Origin: Treponema sp.
GTDB taxonomy: Bacteria > Spirochaetota > Spirochaetia > Treponematales > Breznakiellaceae
Assembly (NCBI GenBank): GCA_031273185.1
Contig: JAISSG010000088.1
Location: 1 to 8,655, forward strand
Reading direction: 5' to 3'
DNA: 8,655 nucleotides
Below the pieces are notes generated by a model. The model saw only the letters and a list, made by a program, of their open reading frames with translations, did no database searches and was not told the origin of the DNA. Made by a program: the position numbers and the translations under genes. Positions 651-8,655 of this stretch are shown here, piece after piece. Every line of letters begins with the position of its first letter. Within the stretch, counting starts at the first letter, position 1.

Positions 651-2306
651 TTACGTCGCTGTACCCAGCTCCTCGACCTTTTTCGAACCCATTTCCCGTA
701 GCAGGTACTTTTGAATCTTTCCCGACGATGTTAGCGGGTAGCTGTCAATAAAAAACACGTAGCGGGGGATTTTGAAGCGGCTGATTTGTCCACGGCAGTA
801 GTCGCGGACATCTTCCTCGCTGAGGGCGGCGTCGGGGTGCGGGATGATGAACGCCCCAACCTCCTCGCCGTATTTCTTGCTGGCAATGCCTACTACCTGC
901 ACGTCTTTGACGCCGGGCATGGTGTACAAAAAGTCTTCTATTTCCTTGGGGTACACGTTCTCGCCGCCACGTATGATCATGTCCTTGATCCGGCCGGTGA
1001 CCCGGAAAAAGCCCCGCTCGTCCTTTACCCCCAGGTCGCCGGAGTGCAGCCAGCCGTTCTGGTCGATGCACTTGGCGGTGGCTTCGGGCATCTTGTAGTA
1101 GCCCTTCATGCTGTTGTAGCCACGGCAGCAGAACTCGCCGTGGGTGCCGTCGGGGCACTCCTCGCCGGTTTCCGGGTCACGGATCGTTACCTCGATGCCG
1201 GGCAGGGCGCGGCCAACGGTCTCGACCTTTGCCTCAAGGTCGTCGTCATAGCGGGTCTGGGTCATCACCGGGGACGATTCGGTCAGGCCGTAGCAGATGG
1301 TAACGTCCTTCATGTGCATCAAATCGATTACCCGGCGCATTGCCTCGATGGGGCAGGGCGATCCCGCCATAATGCCGGTGCGGAGGCTGGAAAGGTCGAA
1401 CATGTTAAACATGGGGTGGTTCAGTTCGGCGATGAACATGGTCGGCACACCGTACACGGCAGTGCATTTTTCCTTTTGAATCGTCGCCAACACCATTAGC
1501 GGGTCGAACCACTCGACGATGGCCGCCGTGGAGCCGTGGGTCAGCACTGCCATCATCCCCAGCACGAGCCCGAAGCAGTGGAACAGCGGCACGGGCAGGC
1601 ACACGATGTCCTTTTCCGTCAGCCGCTGGTTGTCGCCGATGCCCAGCCCGTTGTTGAGGATGTTCCGGTGGGTCAGCATGACCCCCTTGGGAAAGCCGGT
1701 GGTCCCGCTGGTGTACTGCATATTTACCACGTCGTTGCGGTCAAGCGAGGCTTCGATTTTCCGCAGTTCAGCATCATCGCCGTGCTGCCCCAACAGCAGT
1801 ACCTCGTTAAAGCTGTACATCCCCCGATGCTTCTGCTGTCCGACATAGACAACGTGTTTCAGGAAGGGGAATTTTTCCGATTTCAGGTAGCCCCGCTGCG
1901 AGGTCTTCAGTTCGGGGACGAGTTCGTTCACCATCGAAACGTAATCCGAATCCCGCCACCCGTCGATGACGCACAGGCAGACCATGTCCGACTGCTGGAG
2001 GACGTATTCAAGCTCGTGGAGCTTGTAGCCCGTGTTCACCGTGACCAGCACCAGCCCCATCCGGGCGCAGGCGAACAGCACGGTATTCCAGTCCGGCACG
2101 TTGGTCGCCCAAATCCCCACATGGTCGCCTTTTTTCAGCCCCATCGCCAAAAAGCCCTTCGCCAGTTCATCAACCCGCTTGTCGAATTCAGCGTAGGTAA
2201 AGCGGAGGTTCCGGTCTGCATACACGAGAAAGTCGTGGTCGGGGTGGTTTTGGGTTTTTTCCCGCAACACTGCGGAGAGCGTCTTCTCAATAAAAATCTG
2301 TTCCAT
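651..2306 (-). CDS. AMP-forming fatty acyl-CoA ligase (ANL superfamily)
   Basis: A 551-residue enzyme, full length for the family, that activates a carboxylic acid (probably a medium- or long-chain fatty acid) to its acyl-adenylate and then the acyl-CoA, in the cytoplasm. The ANL core motifs are intact: phosphate loop [10 protein letters not shown] (199-208), YGLTESSP (339-346), the SGD aspartate (422-424), hinge and A8 loop [18 protein letters not shown] (438-455), and the catalytic lysine in SSGKIQK (K530). The N-terminus ([11 protein letters not shown]) is typical of bacterial AMP-binding proteins of this type. The exact acid cannot be told from sequence. It is the second gene after an HTH-cupin regulator on the same strand, an arrangement I recall from other anaerobes, so control by that regulator is likely. 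The ATG at 2306 has no Shine-Dalgarno sequence: the bases before it are AT-rich for nine positions and then the C-rich end of a heptamer repeat array. The high GC of this gene creates long empty frames on the opposite strand. Confidence 0.93.
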
Positions 2307-2315
2307 ATTTGTTAT

Positions 2316-2377
2316 GGGGACTAGGGAATAGGGACTAGGGAATAGGGGTTAGGGAATAGGGACTAGGGACTAGGGGA
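2316..2377 (+). repeat. Left heptamer array, G-rich on + strand (GGGACTA/GGGAATA)
   Basis: Eight contiguous 7-base units from 2317 read GGGACTA, GGGAATA, GGGACTA, GGGAATA, GGGGTTA, GGGAATA, GGGACTA, GGGACTA, followed by a partial GGGGA. Every unit starts with GGG, giving nine G-runs separated by mostly 4-base linkers, which satisfies the usual G-quadruplex pattern on the + strand. The array ends 10 bases from the ligase start codon, so in the mRNA it is a C-rich leader immediately before the AUG. It is the inverted partner of the array at 2391-2458. Confidence 0.95.
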
Positions 2378-2390
2378 GTACAAACAGCAA

Positions 2391-2458
2391 CCCCGGTCCC
2401 CGTTCCCTAATCCCCGTTTCCCATTCCCCGATCCCCAGTCCCCAGTCCCCAGTCCCCC
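2391..2458 (-). repeat. Right heptamer array, C-rich on + strand (CCCCAGT type)
   Basis: Nine contiguous 7-base units read on the + strand as CCCCGGT, CCCCGTT, CCCTAAT, CCCCGTT, TCCCATT, CCCCGAT, then CCCCAGT three times, followed by CCCCC. On the minus (coding) strand this gives ten runs of at least three G with 3- or 4-base linkers. It starts two bases after the stop codon of the HTH-cupin gene. With the left array it forms an imperfect inverted repeat of arms 62 and 68 bases around a 13-base centre (2378-2390, GTACAAACAGCAA). The unit resembles the short tandemly repeated repetitive (STRR) heptamers described in filamentous cyanobacteria (CCCCAGT class); a common origin is not implied. The fading uniformity from 2453 inward to 2391 suggests older and newer copies. 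Confidence 0.95.
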
Positions 2459-2460
2459 TT

Positions 2461-3042
2461 TTAAACTGGTGTGTAAATGACGGCGAGAATTTTCACCGGC
2501 TTGTTGTCAGCGGAGATTACCCGGTGCGGTACGATGGAATCGTAGTACACCGAGTCCCCGGCCTTGAGCGTCTCGGAAGTGGTGCCGTATTCCAGGGCAA
2601 GGTTGCCCGTCAGGACGTGGATGAATTCCTCGCCCTCGTGGGTGCTTTTTTCCTGCACCGCGTCCGGCTCTATGTCAACGATGAACGGCTCCATGTGGCG
2701 GCCATTTTTGTCCGCCGCCAGCGCCTTGAAACTCAGTCCCTGATGCCCCTGCGCCGTGCCGCCGTCCGGCAACCCGGTCTTGAAACGCTCCGACTCGGCG
2801 GTTTGCCCGGCGCGGGTAATAACCGGCCCAAGCTGCTCGTGATCGTCCAGCAGGGTGCCAAGGCGGACTCCCAGCGCCCGCGCTACCTTAATCAGCGGGG
2901 CAAGATCGGGGATGTGCCCCTCGTTCTCGATTTTAGCGATCAGCTCGACAGAGATGCCGCTCCGTTCGGCCAGCGTGTCCTGGCTGATGGAATAGGTGTT
3001 GCGCAACTCGGTGATTCGTTGCCCAAGTGAATATGTTCCCAT
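2461..3042 (-). CDS. XRE-family regulator with C-terminal cupin sensor domain
   Basis: A transcription factor of 193 residues from the ATG at 3042. Residues 7-62 form an HTH (QRITELRNTYSISQDTLAER, then SGISVELIAKIENEGHIPDL). Residues about 118-190 form a small cupin barrel with STHEGEEFIHVLTG and an LKAGDSVYYDSIVPHR strand pair; H135, E137/E138 and H173 are the likely ligand- or metal-binding positions. Regulators of this class usually bind a small molecule in the cupin to modulate DNA binding; the ligand here is unknown. The frame is open to an ATG at 3087, but the shorter start is preferred because the HTH family begins near MGTYSLGQRI, the extra 15 residues look nothing like it, and they would be encoded by the predicted promoter. 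There is no Shine-Dalgarno sequence before 3042. The gene precedes the acyl-CoA ligase and faces the HAD operon, so it is the obvious candidate to bind the inverted repeat at 3081-3107. Confidence 0.92.
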   Translation of the reverse strand: MGTYSLGQRITELRNTYSISQDTLAERSGISVELIAKIENEGHIPDLAPLIKVARALGVRLGTLLDDHEQLGPVITRAGQTAESERFKTGLPDGGTAQGHQGLSFKALAADKNGRHMEPFIVDIEPDAVQEKSTHEGEEFIHVLTGNLALEYGTTSETLKAGDSVYYDSIVPHRVISADNKPVKILAVIYTPV

Positions 3043-3051
3043 AATGCGAAC

Positions 3052-3080
3052 AGTATACAAAATCGGGCAGTGAATGGGAA
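3052..3080 (-). promoter_or_regulatory. Predicted promoter of the HTH-cupin/ligase pair
   Basis: On the minus strand TTCCCA (3080-3075, 4 of 6 matches to TTGACA) lies exactly 17 bases from TATACT (3057-3052, 5 of 6 to TATAAT). A start about seven bases beyond the -10 falls near 3045, only about three bases before the ATG at 3042. This would make a nearly leaderless mRNA, which agrees with the missing Shine-Dalgarno sequence. Confidence 0.5.
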
Positions 3081-3107
3081 CTGGCAACCGGCTACTTGAA
3101 TTGCCAG
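3081..3107. promoter_or_regulatory. Candidate operator: CTGGCAA-N13-TTGCCAG
   Basis: A perfect 7-bp inverted repeat: CTGGCAA at 3081-3087 and TTGCCAG at 3101-3107, half-site centres 20 bp apart (about two helical turns, so both on one face of the DNA). The left half abuts the minus-strand -35 element, and the right half overlaps the last base of the + strand -35 element. A dimer bound here would cover both promoters. The HTH-cupin protein encoded alongside is the natural candidate, but that is inference. Confidence 0.5.
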
Positions 3108-3124
3108 CATTTCGGGGTTATGCT
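3096..3124 (+). promoter_or_regulatory. Predicted promoter of the HAD-CBS-DRTGG operon
   Basis: TTGAAT (3096-3101, 4 of 6 matches) and TATGCT (3119-3124, 4 of 6) are separated by exactly 17 bases. A transcript starting seven bases past the -10 would begin at 3131, the A of the HAD start codon, so the gene may be leaderless; no Shine-Dalgarno sequence is seen. Each box is only a moderate match, and the support comes mainly from spacing and position. Confidence 0.4.
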
Positions 3125-3130
3125 TGAACA

Positions 3131-3958
3131 ATGAGCACTACGCGCCTCTTGGCCCTTGATCTGGACGATACCCTGCTTCGGCCTGACTTGACCATTTCCC
3201 ATCGTACCAGAAACGCCATCAGGAAGGCGGAAGCTGCGGGGATTACGGTGGTGCTGGCATCGGGGAGGGTTCCCTCCGTGATAAGGCATTTTGCAGGTAT
3301 CCTGGGGATGAACCGGCGGAAAGACTATGTTATCTGCAACAACGGCACGATCATCCAGGAAAGCGACACCGGCAACATTGTCAGCGAGGTGAGGATCGAG
3401 CCAAAGACGGCGCTTGCCGCTTTCGACCTGGCCGAAGCCGAGGATTTTCTGGTGCAAATCTACGAAGACGATGTGATGTACGTGTCGCGCCACAACGAGT
3501 TTACCGGCTACGATCAAAAGCTGACCGGCCTGCGCCAGGTGGTGGTGGAGAATTTTCGCGCCATGGTGGGCGGCGGCGTCCACAACCTGCTGTTTCCCGG
3601 GGACCCCGTGCTGCTTGCCCCGCTGGAAAGCCTGTTTCGCACCTACCTGGGCGGCGATATTACCTTGTTCACCAGCAAGCCCTACTTTCTCGAATTGCTG
3701 CCCGCCAATACCGACAAGGGGACCGCGCTGGCAAAGGTCGCGTCCCTTTTGGGGATTGAGCGGGAAGAGGTGGTTGCCATTGGCGACTCGATGAACGACG
3801 AGGCGATGATCCGCTGGGCGGGCACGGGCATAGCGATGGCCAACGCCGACGAGCGGATCAAGAACATCGCCAACCTGGTTACGGAAAGAACCAATGACGA
3901 TGACGGCGTTGCCGAGGTTATCGAAAAATATGTATTGGCAAAAACAGGTATCGTATGA
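3131..3958 (+). CDS. Cof-type HAD-superfamily phosphatase (class IIB)
   Basis: A 275-residue, full-length cytoplasmic phosphohydrolase of the Cof/YidA-like group, Mg-dependent and acting on sugar phosphates, flavin or pyridoxal phosphates or similar small substrates; the substrate cannot be predicted. Motif I is LALDLDDTLL with nucleophile D10 and acid/base D12; motif II is ASGR (S44); motif III lysine is K196 in NTDKGTALAKV; motif IV is IGDSMND (D219, N222, D223). The cap domain lies between about residues 85 and 190. The C-terminus NDDDGVAEVIEKYV is characteristic of the family. Its stop overlaps the start of the next gene (ATGA at 3955-3958), showing translational coupling to the CBS-ATPase protein. 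The short frame ATGCTTGAACAATGA just upstream (3120-3134) is considered chance. Confidence 0.93.
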   Translation: MSTTRLLALDLDDTLLRPDLTISHRTRNAIRKAEAAGITVVLASGRVPSVIRHFAGILGMNRRKDYVICNNGTIIQESDTGNIVSEVRIEPKTALAAFDLAEAEDFLVQIYEDDVMYVSRHNEFTGYDQKLTGLRQVVVENFRAMVGGGVHNLLFPGDPVLLAPLESLFRTYLGGDITLFTSKPYFLELLPANTDKGTALAKVASLLGIEREEVVAIGDSMNDEAMIRWAGTGIAMANADERIKNIANLVTERTNDDDGVAEVIEKYVLAKTGIV

Positions 3959-4902
3959 GTGACGACAATGTCCAGCAGAAGGAAGTCCCCATCAGCACGG
4001 TTGATTCGCCGTCGGTGGTTTTGGAGCTTATCTATCAGCTTAAAATAAAAGACGTGATGACATCTTCGGTTATTACCGCCAAGCCGAGCCAGAGCCTGCG
4101 GCATGTCCAGGCGCTGATGCGGGAAAACCGGATCACCGGCGTTCCCATCGCGGAAGAATTAAAGCTCGTCGGCATGATTTCCATTGACGACATTGTCATC
4201 GCGCTGGACAAGGGCCTGATCGACTGCCCGATTGAGGAGCGCATGACCCGGGATGTCATCGTGCTGCAGGACGACATGCCCCTGTCCTTTGCCATTTCCT
4301 ACCTCAACAAGTACAATTACGGCCGTTTTCCCGTGCTGAACAAGAACCATGAACTTGTGGGGGTGTTGAGCCCAACAGACGTTATCAAGTCGCTGCTGGT
4401 TGAGATGAACCGGGAAGTGCTAAGGCTTGAGAAAATGCAAAAGGAATCCTCGAGCATCTCGTCGCCGCATTCGGAAATGGAGTACAACGTTCCCCGCTAC
4501 GATTTCGAGCTGGCCGGCAGGGCTTCCACGGAGATCAAGAAGGCCCTCAAGCAGCGGAACATCGATCCCAAGATAATCAGGCGTATTGCCATTGCCAGCT
4601 ACGAGCTGGAAATTAACCTGGTGGTTCACTCGCAGGGCGGCACAATCCACTGCCGCATACAGCCCGACAAGATAATGATCACCGCCACCGATGTCGGCCC
4701 CGGCATTGCCGACGTGAACCAGGCTTTGCAGGAGGGCTGGTCAACGGCCAACGAGTACGTCCGGTCGCTGGGCTTTGGCGCGGGCATGGGCCTTGCCAAC
4801 ACCAAGCGGGTGTCCGACGAGTTTTCGATCAATTCCGCTCTGGGAGTCGGTACCACGGTGCGGTCGGTGGTGTACGTCAATTCCTCAAAGGACGAGACAT
4901 AG
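3955..4902 (+). CDS. Two-CBS-domain protein fused to RsbT/RsbW-like ATPase domain
   Basis: A 315-residue soluble sensor protein. Residues about 33-86 (DVMTSSVITAKPSQSL to VGMISIDDIV) and 94-149 (EERMTRDVIVLQDDMPLSFA to GVLSPTDVIKSLL) are a CBS pair (Bateman module), which in other proteins binds AMP, ATP, SAM or related adenosyl ligands. A short charged helix (150-165) leads to a GHKL-type ATPase domain of the anti-sigma/RsbT kind at about 185-310: N-box SYELEINLVVHS (E217, N221), G1 box TDVGPGI (D246), and G2 box LGFGAGMGLANTKR (273-286) followed by ALGVGTTV. It lacks a dimerisation-phosphoacceptor His domain, so it is not a classical histidine kinase; protein serine kinase activity or partner switching is more likely. 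It overlaps the HAD gene by four bases and is followed by the DRTGG gene, whose Shine-Dalgarno sequence overlaps this stop codon. From memory, ATPases of this type sit beside DRTGG proteins in [FeFe]-hydrogenase clusters of anaerobes; no hydrogenase gene is in this window. Confidence 0.88.
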   Translation: MSDDNVQQKEVPISTVDSPSVVLELIYQLKIKDVMTSSVITAKPSQSLRHVQALMRENRITGVPIAEELKLVGMISIDDIVIALDKGLIDCPIEERMTRDVIVLQDDMPLSFAISYLNKYNYGRFPVLNKNHELVGVLSPTDVIKSLLVEMNREVLRLEKMQKESSSISSPHSEMEYNVPRYDFELAGRASTEIKKALKQRNIDPKIIRRIAIASYELEINLVVHSQGGTIHCRIQPDKIMITATDVGPGIADVNQALQEGWSTANEYVRSLGFGAGMGLANTKRVSDEFSINSALGVGTTVRSVVYVNSSKDET

Positions 4903-4905
4903 GAG
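4901..4905 (+). promoter_or_regulatory. Strong ribosome binding site overlapping upstream stop
   Basis: AGGAG lies six bases before the ATG at 4912 and shares its first two bases with the TAG stop (4900-4902) of the CBS-ATPase gene. This fixes the DRTGG start and suggests coupled translation. Confidence 0.85.
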
Positions 4906-4911
4906 CAAAGC

Positions 4912-5250
4912 ATGACGATTAGGGAAGTTGCCGCCGCGCTGGGCGCGGAAATCTGCCAGGATGAATTTGAGGACGTGGCCGTCGCCGGGGCGTATACCTC
5001 CGACCTGCTTTCCGATGTCATGGCAAACGCAAAGGACGGCGGGGCGCTTGTCACGATTCAGGCGCACAAGAACACCGTGGCGGTGGCGACCCTGGTTAAC
5101 ATATCGGTGATCGTTATCTGCAACTCGCGCCCCCTGCCGGACGACATGCTGGAAGCGGCAAAAGACGAAGGCGTGGCGGTCATCCGCACCAGGGAAAACC
5201 AGTTCACCGTTTCGGGGAAATTGTGGGAAATGCTAAAAACACCCCGTTAA
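4912..5250 (+). CDS. Small single-domain DRTGG protein
   Basis: A 112-residue cytoplasmic protein made almost entirely of one DRTGG domain. Recognition rests on the run VAVAGAYTSDLLSDVMANAK (23-42), then GALVTIQAHKNTVAVATLVN and ISVIVICNSRPLPDDMLEAA, a pattern typical of free-standing DRTGG proteins. The domain also occurs in phosphotransacetylase-like and CBS-domain proteins, where it is taken to be regulatory; its ligand is not established. It is the last gene of a three-gene operon with a CBS-ATPase protein, which suggests that the two work together, for example as sensor and partner. Its stop TAA (5248-5250) sits in the loop of the hairpin at 5240-5256. Confidence 0.85.
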   Translation: MTIREVAAALGAEICQDEFEDVAVAGAYTSDLLSDVMANAKDGGALVTIQAHKNTVAVATLVNISVIVICNSRPLPDDMLEAAKDEGVAVIRTRENQFTVSGKLWEMLKTPR

Positions 5251-8534: not shown

Positions 8535-8565
8535 TTGACATGTTTTTGACGGGAGTGTGTATAAT
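8535..8565 (+). promoter_or_regulatory. Consensus-like promoter pointing out of the window
   Basis: A perfect TTGACA (8535-8540) and a perfect TATAAT (8560-8565) lie in a row on the + strand with a 19-base spacer, two longer than ideal. TG at 8556-8557 lies just upstream of the -10. The last T of the -10 is the first base of the TTGCCTG repeat tract, so the start site and leader would fall inside the repeats. No gene is visible on this strand before the window ends. Confidence 0.45.
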
Positions 8566-8655
8566 TGCCTGTTGCCTGTTGCCTGTTGCCTGTTGCCTGT
8601 TGCCTGTTGCCTGTTGCCTGTTGCCTGTTGCCTGTTGCCTGTTGCCTGTTGCCCA
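8565..8655 (+). repeat. Heptamer tandem repeat TTGCCTG, nearly 13 copies
   Basis: Twelve identical TTGCCTG units (8565-8648) followed by TTGCC and then CA at the window edge. The perfect identity indicates recent expansion or contraction by slippage. The unit is 7 bases, so a change of one copy would shift any reading frame through it. No stop codon occurs within the repeat on this strand. One frame, ATG at 8540, reads through the whole tract to the edge but has no ribosome site. Confidence 0.97.

Follow-up and report, generated by a model that had tools for sequence, protein, structure and literature searches.

What is the pair of facing heptamer arrays that fills the space between a regulator gene and a ligase gene in an 8,655-nucleotide stretch of Treponema DNA (hereafter the window)? 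The preliminary description of this DNA had left a choice between a spreading element that settles between genes and a regulatory structure. Having compared the locus with genomes of related bacteria, we favour, with some reserve, the following answer: the pair is probably a copy, with its core deleted, of a hairpin element that is dispersed in Treponema relatives and lies mostly between genes. When intact, this element consists of tandem 7-mers with the purine-rich strand inward, an imperfect palindrome of about 61 bases, and facing 7-mers. The window copy, in which the full core is missing, would belong to the family by its arms, its position and a 12-mer.

The array pair and its neighbours in the window

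Ligase start (2306) and regulator stop (2461) are separated by 154 bases, and the arrays take up 143 of them (2316–2458). The claim that two arrays, one of eight and one of nine 7-mers, each with a partial unit, leave only 11 bases of the gap free was borne out by our count. The centre between them, first given as 13 bases, came to 14 (Table 1). TRF scores at periods 7, 14 and 21 were 83–97 for the left arm and 57–78 for the right arm, and the self-match at period 7 was 0.85 and 0.77, respectively. Both arms are built of GGGRNNN in tandem with at least four units in a mostly intergenic position, the character of the Rehm-type arrays discussed below; as a pair, they are 7-mer arms that face each other in an intergenic gap, purine-rich strand inward, the character of the family described here. 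The predicted RNA fold of the gap has an energy of -98.7 kcal/mol (z -6.5), which 0 of 200 dinucleotide shuffles equalled, in agreement with the earlier suggestion of a long imperfect hairpin; the predicted DNA fold is at -40.1 (z -4.3). An Rfam search of the window gave 0 matches above the gathering score.

Table 1. Features of the regulator–ligase region, in window coordinates
Feature	Position	Strand	Description
AMP-binding ligase (PF00501, PF13193)	651–2306	-	Downstream gene; start codon 9 bases from the left arm end
Left arm	2316–2376	+	Eight 7-mers (GGGACTA, GGGAATA, one GGGGTTA) and GGG(G); G-rich on the plus strand
Centre, 14 bases	2377–2390	-	Minus strand of 2379–2390 is TTGCTGTTTGTA; fits positions 5–16 of the type A core
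Right arm	2391–2458	+	Nine 7-mers (CCCCAGT and variants) and a partial unit; C-rich on the plus strand
HTH (PF01381) and cupin (PF07883) regulator	2461–3087	-	Upstream gene; likely ATG near 3042 (by eye)

Since the regulator and the ligase are co-directional, a transcript running from the former to the latter would include the array pair. The best 12 of the 80 matches listed for the ligase are of Treponema type, with 78–87% identity, and they are followed, among the matches listed, by a Spirochaetaceae record with 69% identity. The source is presumably of termite-gut origin, to judge from its isolate series. The genome of the best ligase match (G001) defined our family sample, namely 195 genomes of its family.

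Two further observations were made in the window. Genes for a HAD hydrolase, a CBS-HATPase and a DRTGG/HPr-kinase-like protein stand consecutively at 3131–5250, adjoining the regulator, and DNA similar to window positions 2461–5250 occurs in 171 of the 195 family genomes. A perfect heptamer array, (TTGCCTG)12.7, lies at 8565–8653 and runs into the contig end; it is perhaps an arm of another element truncated by assembly. The other loci compared held no TTGCCTG array of three or more units, and the unit showed no tie to any core.

Dispersed copies and the core between their arms

We compared 20 regulator–ligase gaps (the window, 7 genomes and 12 further loci). The complete element is missing from 17 of them, and these gaps span roughly 4 to 65 bases. 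An element is present in three, of which two hold a core: the copy of genome G186 consists of a G-arm, a 61-base core of type A and a C-arm, and that of G161 of a G-arm, a different core (type B) and a C-arm. In the third, the window, long arms surround the 14 central bases. Given that the core types of G186 and G161 differ, the three copies need not represent one insertion. Among the gaps lacking a complete element, that of G154 carries a short one-sided run of G-units and that of G157 about two. By eye, no more than about 10 bases separate the end of an arm from the ligase start codon in the window and in G161, and no Shine-Dalgarno-like sequence was seen before the ligase start of either; AAGGA precedes the ligase in G181 and AAAGGA in G186.

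The arrays are not confined to this gap. A pattern of four G-runs spaced by 7 was found in 52 of the 195 family genomes and is heavy in a few, such as G161 with 145 forward and 139 reverse placements; counts for this pattern and for facing arms are overlapping placements, not elements. The backward control of the G-run pattern was nearly as high in several genomes (e.g. G145), so the pattern demonstrates 7-spaced G-runs and no specific unit. Facing arms with 36–66 bases between them occurred in nine of the 195 genomes (G161, G157, G155, G145, G186, G127, G160, G154 and G169), compared with none for the backward control, in which the C-rich arm comes first. The proposal of an element spreading between genes thus holds to the extent that a dispersed family exists, and the outcome that would have spoken against it, an array found only here, did not occur. 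As to whether the arms are always opposed, the order is constant within pairs, but solo arrays with no facing partner were also found.

What the preliminary description had missed is that intact copies hold a conserved hairpin core between the arms. We first noticed a recurring core in regions of G161, and built a model (R1) on fifteen type A cores of our choice. In 13 chosen genomes searched on both strands, R1 matched at least 83 times in G161, 54 in G193, 39 in G186 and 11 in G169, and 0–2 times in each of the remaining nine (first 150 candidates per genome). Under stricter filters it was found in at least 19 of the 195 family genomes, and in at least 12 of 390 order-sampled genomes, all 12 being family members already seen. 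All these counts are lower bounds because scoring covered the first 150 candidates of each genome in the 13-genome search, 27 in the family search and 13 in the order search. G193 had no match to the facing pattern, yet it has many cores, with GGGAGTR and GGGAATG arms. The facing-array genomes G160, G127 and G145 gave no R1 match among the first 150 candidates of each. G145 appears by eye to have a core family of its own, GATTTTACTTTGAT...TTCGAAGTAAAA, at L208, L217, L258 and L259; the four centres are alike but differ from the R1 core, and a GGGAACA unit tends toward the TTCGAAGTAAAA side.

The core is an imperfect palindrome of 61 bases. In an alignment of 58 cores (A3), base i stands opposite base 62-i along the whole length, giving 29 pairs, and 68.5% of the cells pair. 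The covariation score was 0.184 against 0.152 in shuffles (0 of 500 reached it) and at most 0.124 in slid versions; because the structure derives from the consensus of these very sequences, it is favoured over the slid versions, and the shuffle control is inflated by relatedness among the copies. Two-sided changes were found at columns 22/41 (A-U 19, U-A 9) and 28/34 (U-A 27, A-U 6), and columns such as 18/45 and 20/43 are mostly mismatched. A palindrome like CCTGCCTGCCGCAGGCAGG lies within or beside the arms of several G193 copies (L274, L280, L297, L304, L310 and others).

An R1 search of the window gave no match up to an E value of 5. Read on the minus strand, the window centre is GGGGTTGCTGTTTGTACTCCCC. 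Its 12-mer TTGCTGTTTGTA scored 12.4 bits against core positions 5–16, a value reached by 21 of 399,706 random 12-mers, and the chance of such a fit is near 0.001 when about 20 placements are allowed for. The window copy would keep at most a stub of the core, 12 of its 14 central bases fitting the core 5' end. Because R1 finds no match while a 12-base stub fits, we infer that this copy is core-deleted.

For the arms and the location of the cores we used 99 copies from element-rich genomes: G161 (44), G193 (31), G186 (16), G169 (5), G155 (2) and G154 (1). They were copied by hand with one strand per place, and were found with a model ending in GGG...CCC, which biases the sample toward G arms. 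The core midpoint falls in an open frame of at least 120 aa in 37 of the 99 copies, compared with 1704 of 1980 random points (86%) in the same loci. The element is therefore mostly, but not always, intergenic. Around the 54 cores with frames on both sides, 32 frame pairs are co-directional, 16 convergent and 6 divergent.

Imperfect hairpins dispersed between genes would also be expected of an ordinary REP/BIME with a RAYT (Y1) transposase as its mobiliser, or of attC sites of the integron type, and RAYT-like genes are present in some element-bearing genomes. Y1_Tnp, however, occurs in 119 of the 195 genomes, in 6 of the 9 with facing arrays and in 11 of the 19 with the core, which amounts to no association. 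Within 1.5 kb of 11 Y1 genes we saw no two-sided array of three or more units, and R1 reached a 14-bit match at most at the nine of these 11 loci that were searched. The REP tag GTAG stands near the core end in 17 of the 99 copies and CGTC in 0. Integron attC boxes follow RYYYAAC ... GTTRRRY, and 0 of the 99 copies have them. We consider both forms of this explanation most unlikely.

A RAYT/REP mobiliser was unsupported by presence across the 195 genomes, by neighbourhood and by tag, and the survey of Y1_Tnp in these genomes and of the Y1 neighbourhoods found no mobilising enzyme. Phage records held nothing matching a G161 element, and plasmid records gave no match to the window pair. Rfam searches of seven element-bearing G161 loci returned just an FMN riboswitch and a tRNA, both away from the elements.

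It is scarcely credible that the pairs are assembly artefacts, whether as inverted chimeras or through the collapse of low-complexity sequence in contigs of metagenomes. In favour of this view, the genomes are MAGs in which poly-G runs close some of the contigs, and an array stands at the end of the window itself. Against it, many separate genomes show the same design flanked on either side by genes, and different species have the same gap occupied. Poly-G and poly-C runs, many of them at contig ends, were noted in several MAGs (L081–L087 and L090–L110) and probably arose as artefacts of sequencing or assembly.

Arm units on one core type and at the gapA-pgk gap

A single core type bears GGGACTR, GGGAGTR, GAGGAAT, AAAGAAC or CACAAAGAA arms. 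Purines make up over half of the strand that reads toward the core in 92 left and 93 right arms of the 99 copies, and the best period is 7 in 73 left and 74 right arms. On one core type, G161 carries GGGACTR (on both sides in 29 of 44 copies), GAGGAAT-type and AAAGAAC-type units, and G186 carries GGGAGTR and CACAAAGAA-type 9-mers. The left and right arms of a copy match beyond chance in G161 (0 of 2000 permutations), whereas the match is not above chance in G193 (352 of 2000), G186 (282) and G169 (834). Where GGGACT is mixed with another class in one arm, the other class is outermost in all six arms listed, of which only L178 (10497), L323 (3701) and L329 (7913) are clear arrays by eye. Inner-unit asymmetry between the G161 arms is weak (Fisher p 0.044, 27 copies), and we therefore make no claim about it.

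The units also differ at one orthologous gap. The G161 element at L171:8435-8552 sits between frames that we take, from their sequences, to be GAPDH and phosphoglycerate kinase (gapA-pgk), with what is presumably triosephosphate isomerase next. Among 23 genomes searched for this place, 19 showed the two flanks within a single locus; G157 and G179 gave one flank only, and G181 and G193 arm matches only. By eye, the units are GGGACTR in G161, GGGAGT in G186, G174 and G160, GGGGTTA in G169, GGGATC in G155 and GGGAGC/GGTTATG in G187. Units like GCAGAGACG are seen in G180, G164, G166 and G007 and less clearly in G191, units like ACCACAGACC in G184 and G001, like ACACGAACC in G002 and like ACGAATTA in G177. 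In G154 a hairpin was seen but little array, G189 lacks such a pair, and the gap of G003 is 10 bases long. The R1 core is present in at least 6 of the 19 (G161, G186, G174, G187, G166 and G164); its arms are G-heptamers in some of these and resemble GCAGAG/GCAAAG in G166 and G164. Arms around a tiny centre, resembling the window in this respect, were found in G155 at gapA-pgk and in G160 (22 bases).

Predicted folding was better than all 200 shuffles for 13 of 18 gapA-pgk gaps; for the others, the number of shuffles matching the fold was 1 (G007), 6 (G184), 11 (G177), 21 (G189) and 28 (G001). These results indicate that the hairpin is mostly present at gapA-pgk despite the differing sequence.

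In eight orthologous site pairs with conserved flanks, the paired cores were not reliably more alike than random pairs: the background was as high in 2 of 44 and 2 of 41 comparisons for the best pairs, and in 30 of 32 and 64 of 68 for the worst. With no consistent excess similarity in the eight pairs, we rejected the view that orthologous cores are vertical descendants. Either the cores turn over as well, or the sites get refilled.

Could the arms be G-quadruplex switches that regulate transcription or translation through the folding of at least four G-tracts in DNA or RNA, with the facing order incidental? Sequence prediction places two non-overlapping quadruplex motifs in each window arm, those of the left arm on the plus strand and those of the right arm on the minus strand, and G-rich heptamers of this kind fold into G4 in vitro (PMC4692102). 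However, the same core also bears arms that lack G-tracts (GAGGAAT, AAAGAAC and CACAAAGAA), as do the gapA-pgk hairpins of several species, and we judge this account highly improbable.

Growth in place deserves more attention, although we regard it as rather unlikely. Here an ordinary intergenic hairpin would be widened by replication slippage and inter-arm template switching, with no movement, and each species would grow its own arms. Such growth would suit the differing units at the orthologous gapA-pgk gap, the solo arrays, copies whose two arms need not match, and the commonness of heptamer tandem repeats in bacteria (PMC4692102). It does not suit the recurrence of one 61-base core type at many unrelated genome places or the dominance of one unit in a genome, as with GGGACT on both sides in G161. 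A recurring core type and a dominant unit together call for spread.

A proposed history and known systems

On the reading that we favour, a dispersed hairpin element, the window copy would once have had a core and have since lost it. The arms may grow by 7-base slippage adjoining the core, and units would spread genome-wide by the copying of whole elements or by exchange between copies. When an element lies between co-directional genes, its transcript would fold into a stable hairpin that closes the upstream message at its 3' end and immediately precedes the start codon of the downstream gene. This hairpin would likely shield the upstream mRNA and lower or uncouple the downstream gene, here the ligase. 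Since the window element occupies the would-be ribosome site of the ligase, lower ligase expression is the simplest forecast.

A wider reading, possible but in our opinion doubtful, is that of an element whose shape is kept and whose sequence is rewritten. The hairpin would stay between genes, and a genome-wide process would overwrite its arms with the current tandem unit of the species; heptamer satellites and gapA-pgk may fit this. The units, 7-mers and sometimes 8- or 9-mers, would be placed beside the core with the purine-rich strand inward. At pairs of genes like gapA-pgk, the element may be retained as an mRNA hairpin, and the heptamer satellites of cyanobacteria and Xanthomonas may be arms of such elements. 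If arrays are the arms of hairpin elements, then facing order, co-directional placement and species-specific units share one explanation. The question is also relevant to the genome-wide spread and replacement of short tandem units, and gapA-pgk, with a hairpin in most species and differing sequence, offers a natural series in which selection on the hairpin is testable.

Cyanobacterial STRR heptamers include a CCCCAGT-class unit, which the right arm of the window resembles. The likeness to cyanobacteria that had been pointed out holds for the arms but not for the rest. The arm of a G161 element matches four Nostoc plasmids at 91–94% over 30–35 bases; the core was not seen in any of the four, three lack an opposed array in the vicinity, and in the fourth a C-array lies some 270 bases off. 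GGGGACT arrays were observed on these four plasmids (L389–L392), whereas in the strain studied by Rehm et al. 2015 the plasmids were reported to carry none (PMC4692102).

In its available portion, that paper, whose introduction also names MITEs, describes GGGAATC and GGGGA(C/T)T heptamer repeats in Xanthomonas and Nostoc, mentions three heptanucleotides for Calothrix and states that the role of G-rich heptamer repeats remains to be elucidated (PMC4692102). Like the arms of our element, these heptamers are G-rich, mostly intergenic, found between aligned genes and under-represented between divergent ones. They form many convergent pairs, 70 and 75 in two Xanthomonas genomes, so the opposed arrangement is less unusual than the preliminary description had held; the pair type is usually kept between two Xanthomonas species while its length varies (PMC4692102). 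They differ in that the available text describes neither a conserved core between paired arrays nor a change of arm units on one core or at one site. The open-access literature, taken as titles and the beginnings of abstracts, likewise mentions no core between paired heptamer arrays and no arm replacement, which is weak evidence of absence. The TAACTGA repeats of Beggiatoaceae, with a supposed post-transcriptional role, are also intergenic 7-mers, but they are described as direct repeats and apparently do not form facing arms around a hairpin (PMC4679880).

With REP/BIME elements, and with REPINs and their RAYTs, the element shares dispersed palindromes between co-directional or convergent genes and plausible RNA hairpins. 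REPs form stable hairpins in transcripts. Di Nocera et al. 2013 describe REP/BIME elements tagged GTAG or CGTC (PMC3733652). Unlike REPs and REPINs, the element here has no conserved tag or RAYT association, and it carries tandem-repeat arms outside the palindrome. MITEs have fixed terminal inverted repeats; the ends of our element are variable tandem repeats whose units differ between copies, the limits of its arrays are not sharp, and no transposase was identified, but it is likewise short, non-coding and dispersed, with inverted ends. In our best reading, it is a non-coding element akin to REPs or MITEs, with a hairpin as its core.
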